In this document: piece by piece, positions 10,850 through 18,032 of the stretch | Layout of the letters: every line of letters starts with the position of its first letter | How positions within the stretch are numbered: position 1 is the first letter of the stretch | Virus record (IMG/VR): IMGVR_UViG_3300030329_003670 | Coordinates: 1-25,179 of that record | Reading direction: 5' to 3' (one strand) | Length of the DNA stretch: 25,179 nt | Source: a virus | Made by a program: the position numbers and the translations under genes | Notes under the pieces: generated by a model | Seen by the model: only the letters and a program-made list of their open reading frames with translations | Database searches by the model: none | What the model was told of the DNA's origin: nothing

Positions 10850-11221
10850 TTATTGCCCGGTTGTCCTACCAAAATTCTTCCATCCTACTTCAGCCTCTTC
10901 CACTCCCTGCTCGTCTGCCCAACAATTCCCACCTAACGCTATCTTAAAGGGCATATAGCACCCGCACCCTACGCCTTCTTCCCCACATTTCTTCTTCACC
11001 TTGTCAAACAGCAAACACCTATGGCAATTAAGCATTTTGCCGGAGAACCCGACCCCTTTCTCCCTGTTGGTTAATCCCCTCAAGGCTAACATTGCCAGCC
11101 TCATCCAGTCCCCTATCGTAAGCCGACCCCCCTCCTCCTTCAAGACCTTCCACCATTGAGAGTACCTTTTACCCTTAAACCCGAAAAACCTTCTCTCGCC
11201 TAACATAAAATTGTTGCGCAA
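10850..11221 (-). CDS. Minus-strand cysteine-rich phage protein
   Basis: Encodes up to 123 residues from TTG 11221; ATG 11206 would give 118. The C-terminal half has CHRCLLFDKVKKKCGEEG and VGCGCYMPFKIALGGNCWAD, with Cys 66, 69, 79, 86, 88 and 100: a metal-binding knuckle, zinc or possibly Fe-S. I recognise this pattern from uncharacterised phage proteins. The N-terminal half is basic (FKGKRYSQWWKVLKEEGG) with GDWMRLAMLALRG. Strand reversal suggests separate, perhaps early or constitutive, expression from a promoter right of 11221. Confidence 0.65.
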   Translation of the reverse strand: MRNNFMLGERRFFGFKGKRYSQWWKVLKEEGGRLTIGDWMRLAMLALRGLTNREKGVGFSGKMLNCHRCLLFDKVKKKCGEEGVGCGCYMPFKIALGGNCWADEQGVEEAEVGWKNFGRTTGQ

Positions 11222-11699
11222 GGCTGATGCCCAACCTAATGTCCGTCAAGACATACACCTCCGAATGTGTGATGATTACGGAGGCGAGCTAGACTGGGGC
11301 GGATCGAAAACCGACAGCCATCCGTAGGGAGTTAATGCCAGATCTCGTAAATCAACAATCTGATGGGTAGCGATAAAGCAAAAGCATAGCTACGACCGTT
11401 GCAGTCCTAGACTGAGTACTCTGCCCCTTGGCGTTACAGGGCAACCAGACGCCGAGATCACACCTCAAGGCAGGGATTTTGGCCCGATACTGAGCGATAT
11501 ACCGCCAGCCATAGCCAAGACTTTCCTTAACAGGGGAGTTTTGTACCCTTAACCCCACTTCAACCCGCCAATTTCGCTCCACTCTTAACCCGTCCCCGAC
11601 AAACAAAAAGGTTTCAGAGAAAACCAGAAAGTTGAGAAGTTAGTAGTATATATATGACTGGCTGAATTGCGCGTTCCCACCCCCGCCCCCCCGTCTGCC
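11222..11699. other. Gene-free region with strong hairpins and a pseudoknot
   Basis: No convincing gene on either strand. Perfect stems: ATGTC/GACAT (11239/11250), CCTCCG/CGGAGG (11258/11279), CGGAT/ATCCG (11300/11320), GTAGC/GCTAC (11367/11389), CAGTC/GACTG (11402/11410). TGCCC/GGGCA (11422/11439) interleaves with GGCGT/ACGCC (11430/11449) to form an H-type pseudoknot. A C-rich run occupies 11678-11692. It is either the 5' half of the RNA at 11700 or a leader or promoter region for the minus-strand genes. The transcribed strand cannot be fixed by eye. Confidence 0.45.
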
Positions 11700-12223
11700 T
11701 CCTGACCTAATGCCGATTAGGTATGTTAAACCATAGGCTTGTGATGGGTGCGAGGTCGATCACTCGACAGTCGCTTGGAGCCGGTGAGCTTACAGCATCG
11801 GTTCATAGGCAGGGGCGGGACTACCGTGTGGTGTCCCTTAATGCCAAAGGAGAACCCCTACTTTTCCCGGCGTGGAGTATAGTCACGTTGGCGGGCCGTC
11901 TAGTGTCCGAAACCGTGTAGTGAGCAATCGTGCCGGAATAGACAAAGCCACGTTTCTTTGGTGAATAACCTTAAACGAATCGTGATAGGGCCGGGGTATG
12001 GCCAGCTTTGTCTCCCCTAGGGAGTGTCGATCAGCGTTGCATAGGCCAAGCGTGTGGATGGAGCAAATCCATAGCGTATGACTAGACCGTAGGTTTTTTC
12101 TCAAATCGGTTTACCTCAAGTTTTGAGGTGTTACACCGTCGGTTCCTTTCACTCGTTTGAGTTAAACGGGAACCGCACCCCCAAATGGTTTCGAGCCTTG
12201 ACGTGGCTTGGGGGCTTTCTACT
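11700..12223 (+). ncRNA. Candidate large structured non-coding RNA
   Basis: A dense series of perfect or near-perfect stems: CCTAAT/ATTAGG (11706/11716), GTCGA/TCGAC (11755/11764) inside GCGA/TCGC, GAGCCGGTG/CATCGGTTC (11778/11796), GGGAC/GTCCC (11817/11833) inside GGCA/TGCC, GACAAAGC/GCTTTGTC (11941/12005), CTCCC/GGGAG (12012/12020), ACCTCAA/TTGAGGT (12113/12123) inside CGGT/ACCG, and GGTTCC/GGAACC (12141/12169) inside which ACTC pairs GAGT. CCCCCAA/TTGGGGG (12178/12208) then CTTTCT may be the terminator. Size and phage context recall the giant ornate RNAs GOLLD and ROOL; no consensus match could be tested. Confidence 0.5.
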
Positions 12224-12253
12224 GATACGAAGCCGTTAACTTGGAAAACTGAA

Positions 12254-12760
12254 ATGAATATCAATCAAATTCAGATAAATGAGGCTCCGAAGGTAACTTT
12301 GCCTGTTGGAGTGAAGCGTGAAGGTAAAGTGAATGCCAAGACTGGAAAGCGTTCGGACTTGGGTGTTCAGTATAACTTCAAGACTGATGAATCGGGCAAT
12401 CCCGTGGCAAGTCCGGCCAATCTGCGCAAGTTCTATAAGGAACAGAAGGGACTTAAGGGTAATGCATTGACCGCCAAGGTAAACGAGGTCTGGCGAGACA
12501 ATGAGCAAATGGATCGGGCCATGTTTCAGATATTTGGCAACTGGTGCTTTGAGCGCGGTTTGCGGATGTCGCTGGCAAGGGTCAACAAAAACGAGCGCAA
12601 AGCCACTATAACGCTCGAAGCAGCTACGGAGGCGAAGGGCAAGACCAACAAGGTCGAGCAGGCTTTGGTCAGGGCTGCTGTTGCCATGCAGGAAAAAATG
12701 CAGGGCTTGGGCGTGACGTTACCGCTTGAAGAATGCTTGAAGGTCGTCAAGGGGGCTTAA
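12254..12760 (+). CDS. Hypothetical 168-residue protein downstream of the large RNA
   Basis: Starts at ATG 12254 (MNINQIQINEAPKVTLPVG). The N-terminal part (about 1-60) is basic with RKFYKEQKGLKG. Then come FQIFGNWCFERGLRMSLAR and an Ala/Lys-rich helical C-terminus (EAATEAKGKTNKVEQALVRA). It has no membrane segment. It sits between two structured RNA regions and may bind or be controlled by them; that is inference from position only. Confidence 0.7.
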   Translation: MNINQIQINEAPKVTLPVGVKREGKVNAKTGKRSDLGVQYNFKTDESGNPVASPANLRKFYKEQKGLKGNALTAKVNEVWRDNEQMDRAMFQIFGNWCFERGLRMSLARVNKNERKATITLEAATEAKGKTNKVEQALVRAAVAMQEKMQGLGVTLPLEECLKVVKGA

Positions 12761-13442: not shown

Positions 13443-13717
13443 AAGCGAAAGCAGAAACAATATACCCGTTAGGCGACGGCAAGTACGAGGCTTGTGGGTG
13501 GATAACCTACCCAAAGGGGAGCGTGCTGGAAGGTCAGTCGCAAGAGTGCGTAGTGGACATATTCCGGTCACTAGAAGAGGCAAAGGAAAAGTACCCCGGC
13601 GTCGAGGTATCGGAATACGGCAGGTGCAAGGAGCATCGACCGTCTGTTTCGTTAAACCCGCCCAAGGACTTTGATTACTACGATGCTGGAGAATACTGGA
13701 GCGAAAACGATTACTGA
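13439..13717 (+). CDS. Hypothetical 92-residue protein
   Basis: GTG 13439 overlaps the preceding stop (GTGA), with GGAAGGA upstream. The product is beta-rich at first (AETIYPLGDGKYEACGWITY), then has a helix (SLEEAKEKYPGVEVSEYG) and an acidic aromatic end (FDYYDAGEYWSENDY). The last codons are part of the 35-bp direct repeat shared with 14643-14677. Function unknown. Confidence 0.6.
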   Translation: MKAKAETIYPLGDGKYEACGWITYPKGSVLEGQSQECVVDIFRSLEEAKEKYPGVEVSEYGRCKEHRPSVSLNPPKDFDYYDAGEYWSENDY

Positions 13718-13729
13718 TATGAAATTACG
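13695..13729 (+). repeat. 35-bp direct repeat, copy 1
   Basis: Matches 14643-14677 with one mismatch (A versus C at the sixteenth base). Copy 1 spans the end of the gene at 13439 and the first codons of the gene at 13719. The two copies are used in different reading frames, so protein conservation does not explain the match. A recent partial duplication or recombination is likely. Confidence 0.8.
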
Positions 13730-13852: not shown

Positions 13853-14064
13853 ATGGCAGTCGGCACCGAGCGTGTAGTGCGGCCTTTTAATTTCCATCGG
13901 CGACGGTCGGTGGTCGGAGTGGCTGAATAAGTGCATCCAAGGCACTAAGGCGACAACTGGACAGGCTCAACAGCCTAGTGGCAAAGAGCAGTCTGGGTGG
14001 GTACGAAGTAGGGGAATCAGAAACATTTGATTTGGAACCCGAAAAGTTGCAGGTGAACAAATAA
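13853..14064 (+). pseudogene. Small gene broken by a -1 frameshift
   Basis: Frame one (13853-13930) gives 25 residues, MAVGTERVVRPFNFHRRRS then VVGVAE, ending at TAA. One base back, the frame from 13927 continues for 45 residues (ALRRQLDRLNSLVAKSS, then GYEVGESETFDLEPEKLQVNK) to 14064. The second part has strongly coding-like codons and no good start. Reading GAA ATA for GAATAA would restore one 70-residue protein, so a lost A in a homopolymer is the simplest cause. A real mutation or programmed shift is possible. Function unknown. Confidence 0.5.
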
Positions 14065-14083
14065 TCCTGCCTCCATTTTTTTT
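14049..14083 (+). terminator. Likely Rho-independent terminator
   Basis: GCAGG (14049-14053) pairs CCTGC (14066-14070) around 12 bases, followed five bases later by eight T (14076-14083). It overlaps the end of the frameshifted gene and precedes the next transcription block. The stem is short, so efficiency is uncertain. Confidence 0.45.
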
Positions 14084-14376: not shown

Positions 14377-14690
14377 CAACAATAAATGACATGGCAGATT
14401 ACATGATGGAGGTCGTCGATAAGGACTTCGACAAAGAGATAGACCATTCCATTCCGCTTAAACCAGACCACAAATATGTTAAGGAATACTATGCCTTCTT
14501 ACAGATGATGTTGGAGGACAAGTTCTATACCGTGTGGGATCTGTTTAGATACGCAAGGCTGGCGGCAACGGATTCCGATTGGCTTCTGAGTGCCACAAAA
14601 TACCCAGCTTTTGACGCTGTTGTTGCACCAGAGTTAATGAAAACTGGAGCGAAAACGCTTACTGATATGAAATTACGGGGGATGATATGA
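14373..14690 (+). CDS. Hypothetical 105-residue protein
   Basis: ATGA overlap with the preceding gene. The product is acidic and helical, with MADYMMEVVDKDFDKEIDHS at the N-terminus and LFRYARLAATDSDWLLSAT in the middle. Its last codons contain copy 2 of the 35-bp repeat. Function unknown. Confidence 0.65.
   Translation: MTTINDMADYMMEVVDKDFDKEIDHSIPLKPDHKYVKEYYAFLQMMLEDKFYTVWDLFRYARLAATDSDWLLSATKYPAFDAVVAPELMKTGAKTLTDMKLRGMI
14643..14677 (+). repeat. 35-bp direct repeat, copy 2
   Basis: Matches 13695-13729 with one mismatch. This copy lies inside the 3' end of the gene at 14373 and encodes TGAKTLTDMKLR there. The copies are 948 bases apart in direct orientation, so recombination between them would remove the genes in between. 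Confidence 0.8.
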
Positions 14691-15270: not shown

Positions 15271-16836
15271 ATGTCAACAACAACAACAACAAGCGAACTT
15301 GGCCAAGCGGTCAAGATTATGTTCGAGGATATAACACCTGTACAACAGGCGAAGGTGTTGACCTATCTGAACACGAGTGCCGGTCTCAATGAGTCCCACA
15401 AGACCATTGACGATGCGGTTGACGCGGTGGAAGGGCAGTCATGTTCGGAAGAGCGACTGAAGACTGCCATCATTGCGATGCGGGACGGCGAATACAGGCA
15501 TCTGAACGTTCCGGGTCAGCACCTCCCCTCAGCAGCAGTGGTGAGCCAGATTGAAGAAGGGGAAAGCCGGCCCCGGTCAACCACAGTTGAAGTGAGCAAA
15601 CCAGAGCCGGCAGCGGTATCAGCAACAACAACGTCAGAAACGGTAATGCCCTCTCCCTCTCGTGGCAAGTCAAAGCGACAAGGGATGCAGGAGATGTGGG
15701 AATCCATGCAGGAAGCCATGTCTCAGGATGAGGAAGAAGTAGAGACGATTGCTAATCGCATATTTGAAGAGAGATTTAAGCCCGCATTAGTTGAGGCTAT
15801 GAACAACGGCTGCTTCCCTGACAAGCGCATTCAAGAGATGATCGACAGCACTCCGCCGAAGACCGATGACCAGAAGCTGCGCGTGTTGATAGACGAATCA
15901 TTTAGGGATGGCGTTGGCAAGGTTGTCGCAACAGAGGTAAAGGATGGAACTAAGGTGGTGCTACCACCGCTGGAACCAGCGTGTCCATATTTTGTCGAGA
16001 CTCCCATTGTTAAGGCGATTGAGTACCACATTGACAGCGGTCAGCACATCTATGTTGACGGCCCGTCCGGTGCTGGGAAGACCTACCCAATTGAGCAAGC
16101 CTTGCGTCGAAGAGGGAAGCGGTATGTTAAGGTTAATTTCGCTGACGGCATTAGGTTGTCTGACCTAACAACCAAGCAGGAGATCATCGTTCAAGACGGA
16201 AAGACTCAGACTAAGTACGTCGATGGCATCCTTCCCTTCTGCATGAGGCACGGCCTGCCATTGCTCGGCGACGAAGTGGATCAGCTTCAGCCAGAGACCA
16301 CCTCAATAATGAACCCAACGATGGACAAGTACCCCGGCGAGCTGCTTCTTCCCGGTAGCGGGGAACGAGTGACGGCATCTCCCGGCTTTTGGGTAGCACT
16401 AACAGGCAACTGTCTTACGGACGAGACAGGGCTGTACTCAGGGTACAAATCAAGTAATGCGCTTACCAACAGGTGTGCCGGACTGAAGGCCACCTACTTG
16501 GAGAAGAAGGACGAGTCCAACATTCTGGAGGCGGACGGTCTCGACAAGACTGAGGCTAGGATGATCGTGAACGTGATGCATATTCTGCGAGATCTTTACT
16601 CAAATGGCGGTGCGGTTTCGCAGGCTCCGTCTACCAGACAGGCGGTCAGGATTAGTAGATACATACAAGGCAAGGATGTGTTAGGTAAGAGCAATCCCAA
16701 CCTTCCTCCTTTAAGCAGGGATGATGCGTGGCACTACGCCTACTTCAACTTCCTGCCCAAGGCAGAGTACTCCGAGGCGTTAAAGAAATGCCAAGTTGAG
16801 GACACCTCTCTAAACGAAAGGAAATTTAAGGCATGA
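15271..16836 (+). CDS. MoxR/CobS-like AAA+ ATPase
   Basis: Encodes 521 residues. The N-terminal 230 or so are low-complexity and helical. The AAA+ core follows: Walker A DGPSGAGKTY near 262-271, FADGIRLSDLTTKQ, then PLLGDEVDQL (Walker B) near 330-340, and ALTGNCLTDETGLYSGYKSS, NALTNRC with sensor-like residues. This is the layout of MoxR and cobaltochelatase CobS-like ATPases, which remodel complexes together with a VWA-domain partner. The partner gene follows with a 4-base overlap. The start codon is followed by six CAA repeats (15275-15292). Confidence 0.85.
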   Translation: MSTTTTTSELGQAVKIMFEDITPVQQAKVLTYLNTSAGLNESHKTIDDAVDAVEGQSCSEERLKTAIIAMRDGEYRHLNVPGQHLPSAAVVSQIEEGESRPRSTTVEVSKPEPAAVSATTTSETVMPSPSRGKSKRQGMQEMWESMQEAMSQDEEEVETIANRIFEERFKPALVEAMNNGCFPDKRIQEMIDSTPPKTDDQKLRVLIDESFRDGVGKVVATEVKDGTKVVLPPLEPACPYFVETPIVKAIEYHIDSGQHIYVDGPSGAGKTYPIEQALRRRGKRYVKVNFADGIRLSDLTTKQEIIVQDGKTQTKYVDGILPFCMRHGLPLLGDEVDQLQPETTSIMNPTMDKYPGELLLPGSGERVTASPGFWVALTGNCLTDETGLYSGYKSSNALTNRCAGLKATYLEKKDESNILEADGLDKTEARMIVNVMHILRDLYSNGGAVSQAPSTRQAVRISRYIQGKDVLGKSNPNLPPLSRDDAWHYAYFNFLPKAEYSEALKKCQVEDTSLNERKFKA

Positions 16837-18032
16837 GAACATACAGGTTAACAAAAGTAGCAGCGGTAGCCATCGTTGACAGGTTCGCCCGCGAGGTGAA
16901 GCAAGGGAGGACGTTCCTTGAGGCGTCTGAAGCCTTACTTAAAAGCCCTAGCGACAGGACGCGGAACCTAACCAAGCGATTGCTTACGTCTCAAAAGGTG
17001 AGGGCCAAGGTGGTTGTGGTTCTGAACGGAGGGATCACGCCGAAGCTAAGGTGCTATCCCGTCCCGGTCTCAAATGTGTGGGACTTGGTAACAGGGCAAT
17101 GTAATAAGCACTGGTATCAATCCAGACACGCAGGTGTGTGCGGGTACTACGATATTGAAACTGTTTGGATTGCGGTATGCGCGGAATACGGACTGCAAAT
17201 GCCGGTCAACAGGCCGAAGTCGCAAGGCGGATCAGGTGGGGACGGAGACGCTACGAACATAATAGTGGAAGGTATCCCCCATGTGGACAACAACCCGCAC
17301 TACTGCGTGGCCAAGCCTTACAAGACCTGCAAAGAGCAGGCGTTCACGGCCCAACTAATGAACAAGCTTAGGCAGTTAGTGTCGGTGCATCAGAAGCGAA
17401 AGTACAAGAGGGACACGGACGACGGATTCGTAGATCAAGACAGGCTCGTTGACGTTGTGCGGGGAACCAACCTTGATACCGTCCGAGAGTACCCGCATCG
17501 GGGTCAGCGAATAGATGCAGCTGTTCAGATGTTTGTGGATTGCAGCGGGAGCATGGACGGTGCAGGGGGAGATCAGGAAACAGCGTGTGCCTTAGCTTTG
17601 GCGTTAGGTAAGAGTTTCCAACGGCTTCGAGTGCCGCTGTCAATTGTGGCGTTCGATAGCAGCCCGCTGTTGGTCAAGGGATGGGATGATAAGGTTGAGA
17701 ACACCAAGGTTGACAGGCTTTATGGAGGCGGAGGGACGCACCTTCCCTTGGCAATGGAGCAGTGCCTTCCCTACCTGCTAAAGCGAAGGGAGAGTCGAAA
17801 GATTCAGGTTGTCCTGACTGATGGAGCAATAGGTAAGCCGAACAGTTGGTGGCAAAGGGTGAAGGAACACAGGATGAACAAGGGTTACGAGTGCTACGGC
17901 TTCGGAATTAGGGCGTGCATAGAGCCGGGATACTTTGACGGCCAGATCGACTACCTAACAGGAGACACAATGATATCCGTTGTTAGTCGGGAGGTCGGGA
18001 ACATATTGATACACAAACCCATGACTAAATAG
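16833..18032 (+). CDS. VWA-domain (CobT-like) partner of the AAA+ ATPase
   Basis: Encodes 399 residues. The first 200 or so form a domain of unknown type with a Gly/Asp-rich linker (QGGSGGDGD). The von Willebrand A domain begins near 230 with VDCSGSMDGAG (MIDAS DxSxS), then GGGGTHLPLAME with the MIDAS Thr near 300, and VVLTDGAIG near 325-333 with the third MIDAS Asp. All metal-site positions are present, so it probably binds Mg2+ and a partner. The adjacent AAA+ gene makes a MoxR-VWA or CobS-CobT-like pair. The phage role is unknown; protein-complex remodelling is inferred. Confidence 0.85.
   Translation: MRTYRLTKVAAVAIVDRFAREVKQGRTFLEASEALLKSPSDRTRNLTKRLLTSQKVRAKVVVVLNGGITPKLRCYPVPVSNVWDLVTGQCNKHWYQSRHAGVCGYYDIETVWIAVCAEYGLQMPVNRPKSQGGSGGDGDATNIIVEGIPHVDNNPHYCVAKPYKTCKEQAFTAQLMNKLRQLVSVHQKRKYKRDTDDGFVDQDRLVDVVRGTNLDTVREYPHRGQRIDAAVQMFVDCSGSMDGAGGDQETACALALALGKSFQRLRVPLSIVAFDSSPLLVKGWDDKVENTKVDRLYGGGGTHLPLAMEQCLPYLLKRRESRKIQVVLTDGAIGKPNSWWQRVKEHRMNKGYECYGFGIRACIEPGYFDGQIDYLTGDTMISVVSREVGNILIHKPMTK

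Follow-up and report, generated by a model that had tools for sequence, protein, structure and literature searches.

Introduction

To our knowledge, bacteria and phages encode only a handful of classes of ~1-kb RNAs other than rRNA or introns. The complexes that GOLLD, ROOL and OLE form consist of RNA only and have no known use. As phage RNAs of unknown function, GOLLD and ROOL assemble into RNA-only cages and are often encoded near tRNA islands, and the homo-oligomeric cage of GOLLD is a 14-mer (PMC12286853).

The stretch of DNA analysed here (hereafter the window) is an IMG/VR virus record of 25,179 bases with a tailed-phage-like genome that encodes a DnaB helicase, SSB and an exonuclease. 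A first-pass annotation had proposed a kilobase-sized structured RNA at 11222-12223, resembling GOLLD and ROOL but possibly of a different class. Covariation with a related phage, conservation of the 5' part, the non-coding character of the region and the lack of Rfam matches all support this proposal, the comparison with the related phage being decisive, although several of the grounds on which the annotation had based it did not hold up. The segment 11249-12222 very probably represents a real large structured non-coding RNA; its end near 12222 agrees with the annotated limit, whereas its start is placed near 11249 and not at 11222 (Table 1).

Results

Organization of the locus

A DnaB search led to one close contig (IMGVR_UViG_3300030333_005045, hereafter L002), whose DnaB is 63% identical. 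Both phages share the order of a divergent gene for a Cys-rich protein, a non-coding interval (L002 11699-12743) and a downstream gene. The Cys-rich protein (10850-11221, minus strand) has no match in Pfam or PHROG, and for neither neighbouring protein was the structure model good enough for a structure search. The longest open reading frames in the ~1 kb between the two genes comprise 65-84 aa, with none above 84 aa. Since none of them is conserved in L002 or has a convincing Pfam or PHROG family match, the view that the interval holds no convincing gene was confirmed, and the comparison with L002 revealed no conserved protein across the region. Inspection of the open reading frames of the window brought no intron-encoded, IsrB or reverse transcriptase gene to notice.

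Other elements accompany the locus. A divergent manA RNA (RF01745) is found 1.7 kb downstream of the RNA in the window (13894-14080, plus strand) and at L048 3672-3858 (minus strand) on L002's contig; the copies are 89% identical over 192 nt, and the match to the family scores 44.9 bits (E 1.7e-10), short of the gathering score of 55.2. manA RNA is known chiefly from marine sequences and cyanophages. In L002's contig, a tRNA-Cys (GCA; L048 3599-3673, minus strand) directly follows the manA RNA; a tRNA search of the window found none. The window further contains a 39-nt direct repeat (13691-13729 and 14639-14677, 95% identical) and a CobS/CobT-like pair at 15271-18032, in which a VWA-domain gene comes after an AAA ATPase gene.

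Table 1 Features of the candidate RNA and its flanks (window coordinates)
Feature	Position	Strand	Remarks
Left neighbour, Cys-rich small protein gene	10850-11221	-	Divergent; 64% identical to L002 protein; outside RNA
Weak promoter-like pair TTGCGC-17-TAATGT	11214-11242	+	L002 in same place TTGACC-17-TACATT, 9/12
Putative large structured RNA	11249-12222	+ (favoured)	~975 nt; both ends predicted; L002 covariation, structure z-scores, Rfam-negative, non-coding
Hairpin CCTCCG/CGGAGG	11258-11284	+	L002 GCTCCG/CGGGGC: one double change, one G-U change
Highly conserved domain	11285-11347	+	CGAG 11285-11288/CTCG 11344-11347, CTGG 11294-11297/CCAG 11338-11341; alifold
Hairpin with GTAGC/GCTAC core and internal loop GATAAA/ATA	11361-11401	+	Nearly invariant in both phages
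Pseudoknot GTTGC 11398-11402 with loop GCAAC 11441-11445	11398-11445	+	L002 GTTAT/ATAAC, two double changes
Helix CTCTGCC/GGCAGGG	11419-11475	+	L002 ACTTACC/GGTAAGT: three double changes, one G-U change
A-rich linker	11561-11660	+	Between 5' and 3' domains; variable length, without conserved structure
3' domain core	11675-11846	+	C-rich 11675-11683 with G-rich 11812-11820; segment z 2.5
Hairpin CCG.GT..TGA/TCG.GC.CGG	11913-11936	+	Conserved CCGAAACCG and TGCCGGAA
Long-range helix AGACAAAG 11940-11947/CTTTGTCT 12006-12013	11940-12013	+	L002 TGTGCGAT/ATCGTACA; segment z 3.0
Hairpins 12107-12138 and 12140-12175	12107-12175	+	Pairing kept, most letters changed in L002
Terminal GC-rich hairpin CCCCCAA/TTGGGGG	12178-12222	+	Conserved tail CTTTCTAC; terminator-like, weak U tract
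Right neighbour, protein of unknown family	12254-12760	+	39.5% identical in L002's contig; outside RNA

Conservation of sequence and pairing

Third codon positions of four genes common to the window phage and L002 are 41-57% identical, which served as a rough neutral level. With 87% identity over the first 160 nt of the RNA (11258-11416; mean column identity 93%), the 5' domain is conserved far above this level. Identity amounts to 74% in 11417-11480, 38-64% in blocks of the 3' half and 76% in the terminal hairpin.

More than fifteen perfect stems had been put forward as evidence for the RNA. We counted 17 of at least 6 bp, compared to 19.5 ± 4.7 in dinucleotide shuffles, and because shuffles yield as many, perfect-stem counting was rejected as evidence. 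The single-sequence MFE z-scores were -2.05 (plus strand) and -1.37 (minus strand) for the region in the window and -1.46 and +0.31 in L002; by itself, the region shows barely more structure than chance. Non-functional intergenic or decayed coding DNA with chance stems, which such stem numbers and MFE values would fit, is contradicted by the L002 comparison, with its 87% identity over 160 nt against 41-57% at third positions and its compensated helices, and we give this reading next to no credence.

On both strands, the consensus fold of the MAFFT pair alignment was more stable than any of 100 column-shuffled alignments (z -4.2 plus and -4.5 minus for column shuffles, -5.4 plus and -4.5 minus for local shuffles). 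Since MAFFT misaligns the 3' half, we wrote a program that folds and aligns simultaneously, made for the present analysis with no prior use elsewhere and scored against column-shuffled alignments. For the segments 11250-11480, 11660-11870, 11870-12100 and 12095-12235 it returned z-scores of 1.9, 2.5, 3.0 and 4.5 on the plus strand and of -0.9, 2.7, 2.0 and 5.8 on the minus strand, the two 3' segments 11660-11870 and 12095-12235 thus scoring slightly better on the latter. As would be expected of a large structured RNA, base pairs are kept by compensatory change, most strongly in 11940-11947/12006-12013, 12140-12175, 11419-11475 and the pseudoknot 11398-11402/11441-11445, in a comparison whose entire structure evidence comes from two sequences, the window and L002. 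Both the non-coding character of the interval and its pairing are conserved.

From these data we infer on which strand the RNA lies, where it begins and ends, and that it is transcribed. We are fairly confident in the plus strand, considering the 5' domain, the segment 11870-12100, the MFE in both phages, the position of the promoter-like pair and the conserved terminal hairpin. Promoter scan counts in the window and L002 are at chance level, and only the position common to both phages is suggestive. The strand asymmetry of the 5' domain (plus z 1.9 vs minus z -0.9), together with the kilobase length, the nested long-range helices and the pseudoknot, also makes a DNA-level element improbable, i.e. 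a replication origin or packaging site with hairpins formed in the DNA, even though the replication genes for DnaB, SSB and the exonuclease are near and the inverted repeats have been preserved on either strand.

Architecture of the RNA

Within the 5' part, the closing stems of the highly conserved stretch 11285-11347 surround two small hairpins, and this stretch includes GTAGGGAGTTAATGCC; its pairs are invariant between the window and L002 and therefore give no covariation test. The helix 11419-11425/11469-11475 surrounds a hairpin TGGCGT/ACGCCG (11429-11454). The H-type pseudoknot of the first-pass annotation is not conserved as drawn: its stem GGCGT/ACGCC is kept, whereas the stem TGCCC (11422-11426)/GGGCA is broken in L002 (TACCC/GGATA). 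The loop of the GGCGT/ACGCC hairpin pairs instead with 11398-11402, resulting in a covarying pseudoknot that is kept in L002. The linker region has 18 extra nt in L002, and the segment 11475-11670 has a structure z of 0.04.

The 3' domain core contains the hairpins ACCT/AGGT (11705-11722) and GTCGA/TCGAC (11755-11768). A GGGGCGG...TTAATGCC module occurs inside closing stems in both RNA domains (11294-11341 and 11808-11846), the 3' copy echoing the 5' domain in the manner of a duplicated module. The long-range pairing noted earlier at 11941/12005 proved to be a real 8-bp helix, 11940-11947/12006-12013, whose letters are almost wholly replaced in L002; it surrounds the stems CACG/CGTG, TTC/GAA and GGCC/GGCC. 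In 12140-12175, CGGTTCCT/GGGAACCG changes to AGGTGGCT/GGCCGCCT in L002, and for the segment that holds 12107-12175 (z 4.5) 0 of 110 shuffles reach the score. As for the terminator-like end, the GC-rich hairpin 12178-12214 is kept in L002, but its U tract is poor (CUUUCUAC). A terminator scan called the end at 12178-12222 in the window and not in L002, with matches at chance level.

The position of the RNA directly between two divergent genes raises the question of a very long 5' leader with one or more cis-regulatory domains, either of 12254-12760 (plus strand) or, on the other strand, of 10850-11221 (minus strand). The RNA, which spans ~975 nt and combines a pseudoknot with two domains, far exceeds known leaders in size and has no Rfam riboswitch match, and the downstream protein shows poor conservation (39.5%) in comparison to the RNA 5' domain (87%). 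We therefore regard a leader as unlikely, while noting that the terminal hairpin ends ~40 nt before the ATG at 12254, that the best-conserved part adjoins the start of the minus-strand gene and that the manA element in the same phage is a putative cis-regulator.

Known RNA families and further homologues

The Rfam check for GOLLD, ROOL and group I and II introns that the first-pass annotation had called for was run and gave zero matches over the RNA region. In the window, this region has no Rfam match, whether at the gathering threshold or with E relaxed to 5, and cmscan with all 4227 Rfam families found nothing there and only two chance-level animal miRNA/lncRNA matches in L002. With E values allowed up to 5-10, neither the window nor L002 matched the covariance model of GOLLD (RF02032); the search gave weak signals in 5 control genomes, none above cut-off. 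The ROOL model (RF03087) had no match in either, in a search without positive control. Group I and group II intron core models had no match in the window region, and OLE, HEARO, raiA and ARRPOF had no Rfam match at any usable threshold. A divergent GOLLD, ROOL or other named large RNA, beyond the reach of the models, would share the size, the phage location, the domain-linker-domain plan and the nearby manA and tRNA; given no match even at E 5-10 in either phage, and a ROOL search run without positive control, we consider it highly improbable.

A third homologue was not found in IMG/VR pattern scans, in phage and plasmid BLASTN or in ~790 Planctomycetota genomes. The IMG/VR scans with four conserved motifs returned only L002 and matches that, judged by context, are due to chance. 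Among the loci examined, covariance model R1 (11258-11416) recovered the two known copies and no others, and its one match in the ~790 Planctomycetota genomes was weak and partial (17.8 bits, E 0.07). Either the RNA class is rare in the sequences searched, or it is too diverged for the searches used. Searches with the neighbouring proteins led to L038, which is too short to reach the locus, and to L040 (DTSG01000300.1), a 3-kb Planctomycetaceae MAG contig with a relative of the phage exonuclease (60%). With regard to the host, L040 weakly hints at Planctomycetaceae and the phage relatives at Akkermansia phages.

Discussion

The RNA described here probably represents a new class of large phage RNA, of which two members are known. 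It is best read as resembling GOLLD and ROOL in size, context and domain plan, with membership in either class not supported. We lean towards a free-standing plus-strand RNA of ~975 nt, composed of a conserved 5' domain and a drifting 3' domain joined by a linker, that may act in a GOLLD/ROOL-like way. Transcription would proceed on the plus strand from a promoter just before 11249 to the GC-rich hairpin 12178-12214. The product would fold into a sequence-conserved 5' domain (11250-11480) with the covarying pseudoknot and, after an unstructured A-rich linker, into a 3' domain (11660-12222) that keeps its helices while the letters drift. By analogy to GOLLD and ROOL, the RNA might accumulate during infection and might act via its shape, as a scaffold or in an RNA-only assembly, rather than via coding or control of an adjacent gene. 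The manA RNA nearby and the tRNA in L002's contig resemble the context of other large phage RNAs (PMC12286853).

It is conceivable, though we would not count on it, that this new ~1-kb class, rare in IMG/VR, forms RNA-only particles in the style of GOLLD and ROOL with an unrelated fold. A new unrelated class, if true, would suggest that such RNAs arose in phages on more than one occasion and would provide an independent case for functional tests. The example also shows that a large RNA missed by Rfam and unremarkable in its number of stems can be recognized through one homologue.

Among the known systems, GOLLD (RF02032) is likewise phage-encoded, at least 800 nt long, often located near tRNAs and built of elaborate helices and pseudoknots, with one conserved and one variable half (PMC12286853). 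However, the conserved half is the 3' one in GOLLD and the 5' one in the window RNA, which the GOLLD model does not match. ROOL (RF03087) is also a large phage or prophage RNA of unknown function with a variable linker, but its model, which finds no match, comprises 574 positions compared to ~975 nt in the window RNA. OLE, HEARO, raiA, ARRPOF and group I and II intron RNAs are similar as large structured bacterial or phage RNAs and differ in that the window RNA is Rfam-negative for them. manA (RF01745), a structured phage RNA likewise present in both phages at a distance of 1.7 kb downstream, is a separate element of ~190 nt outside the window RNA.
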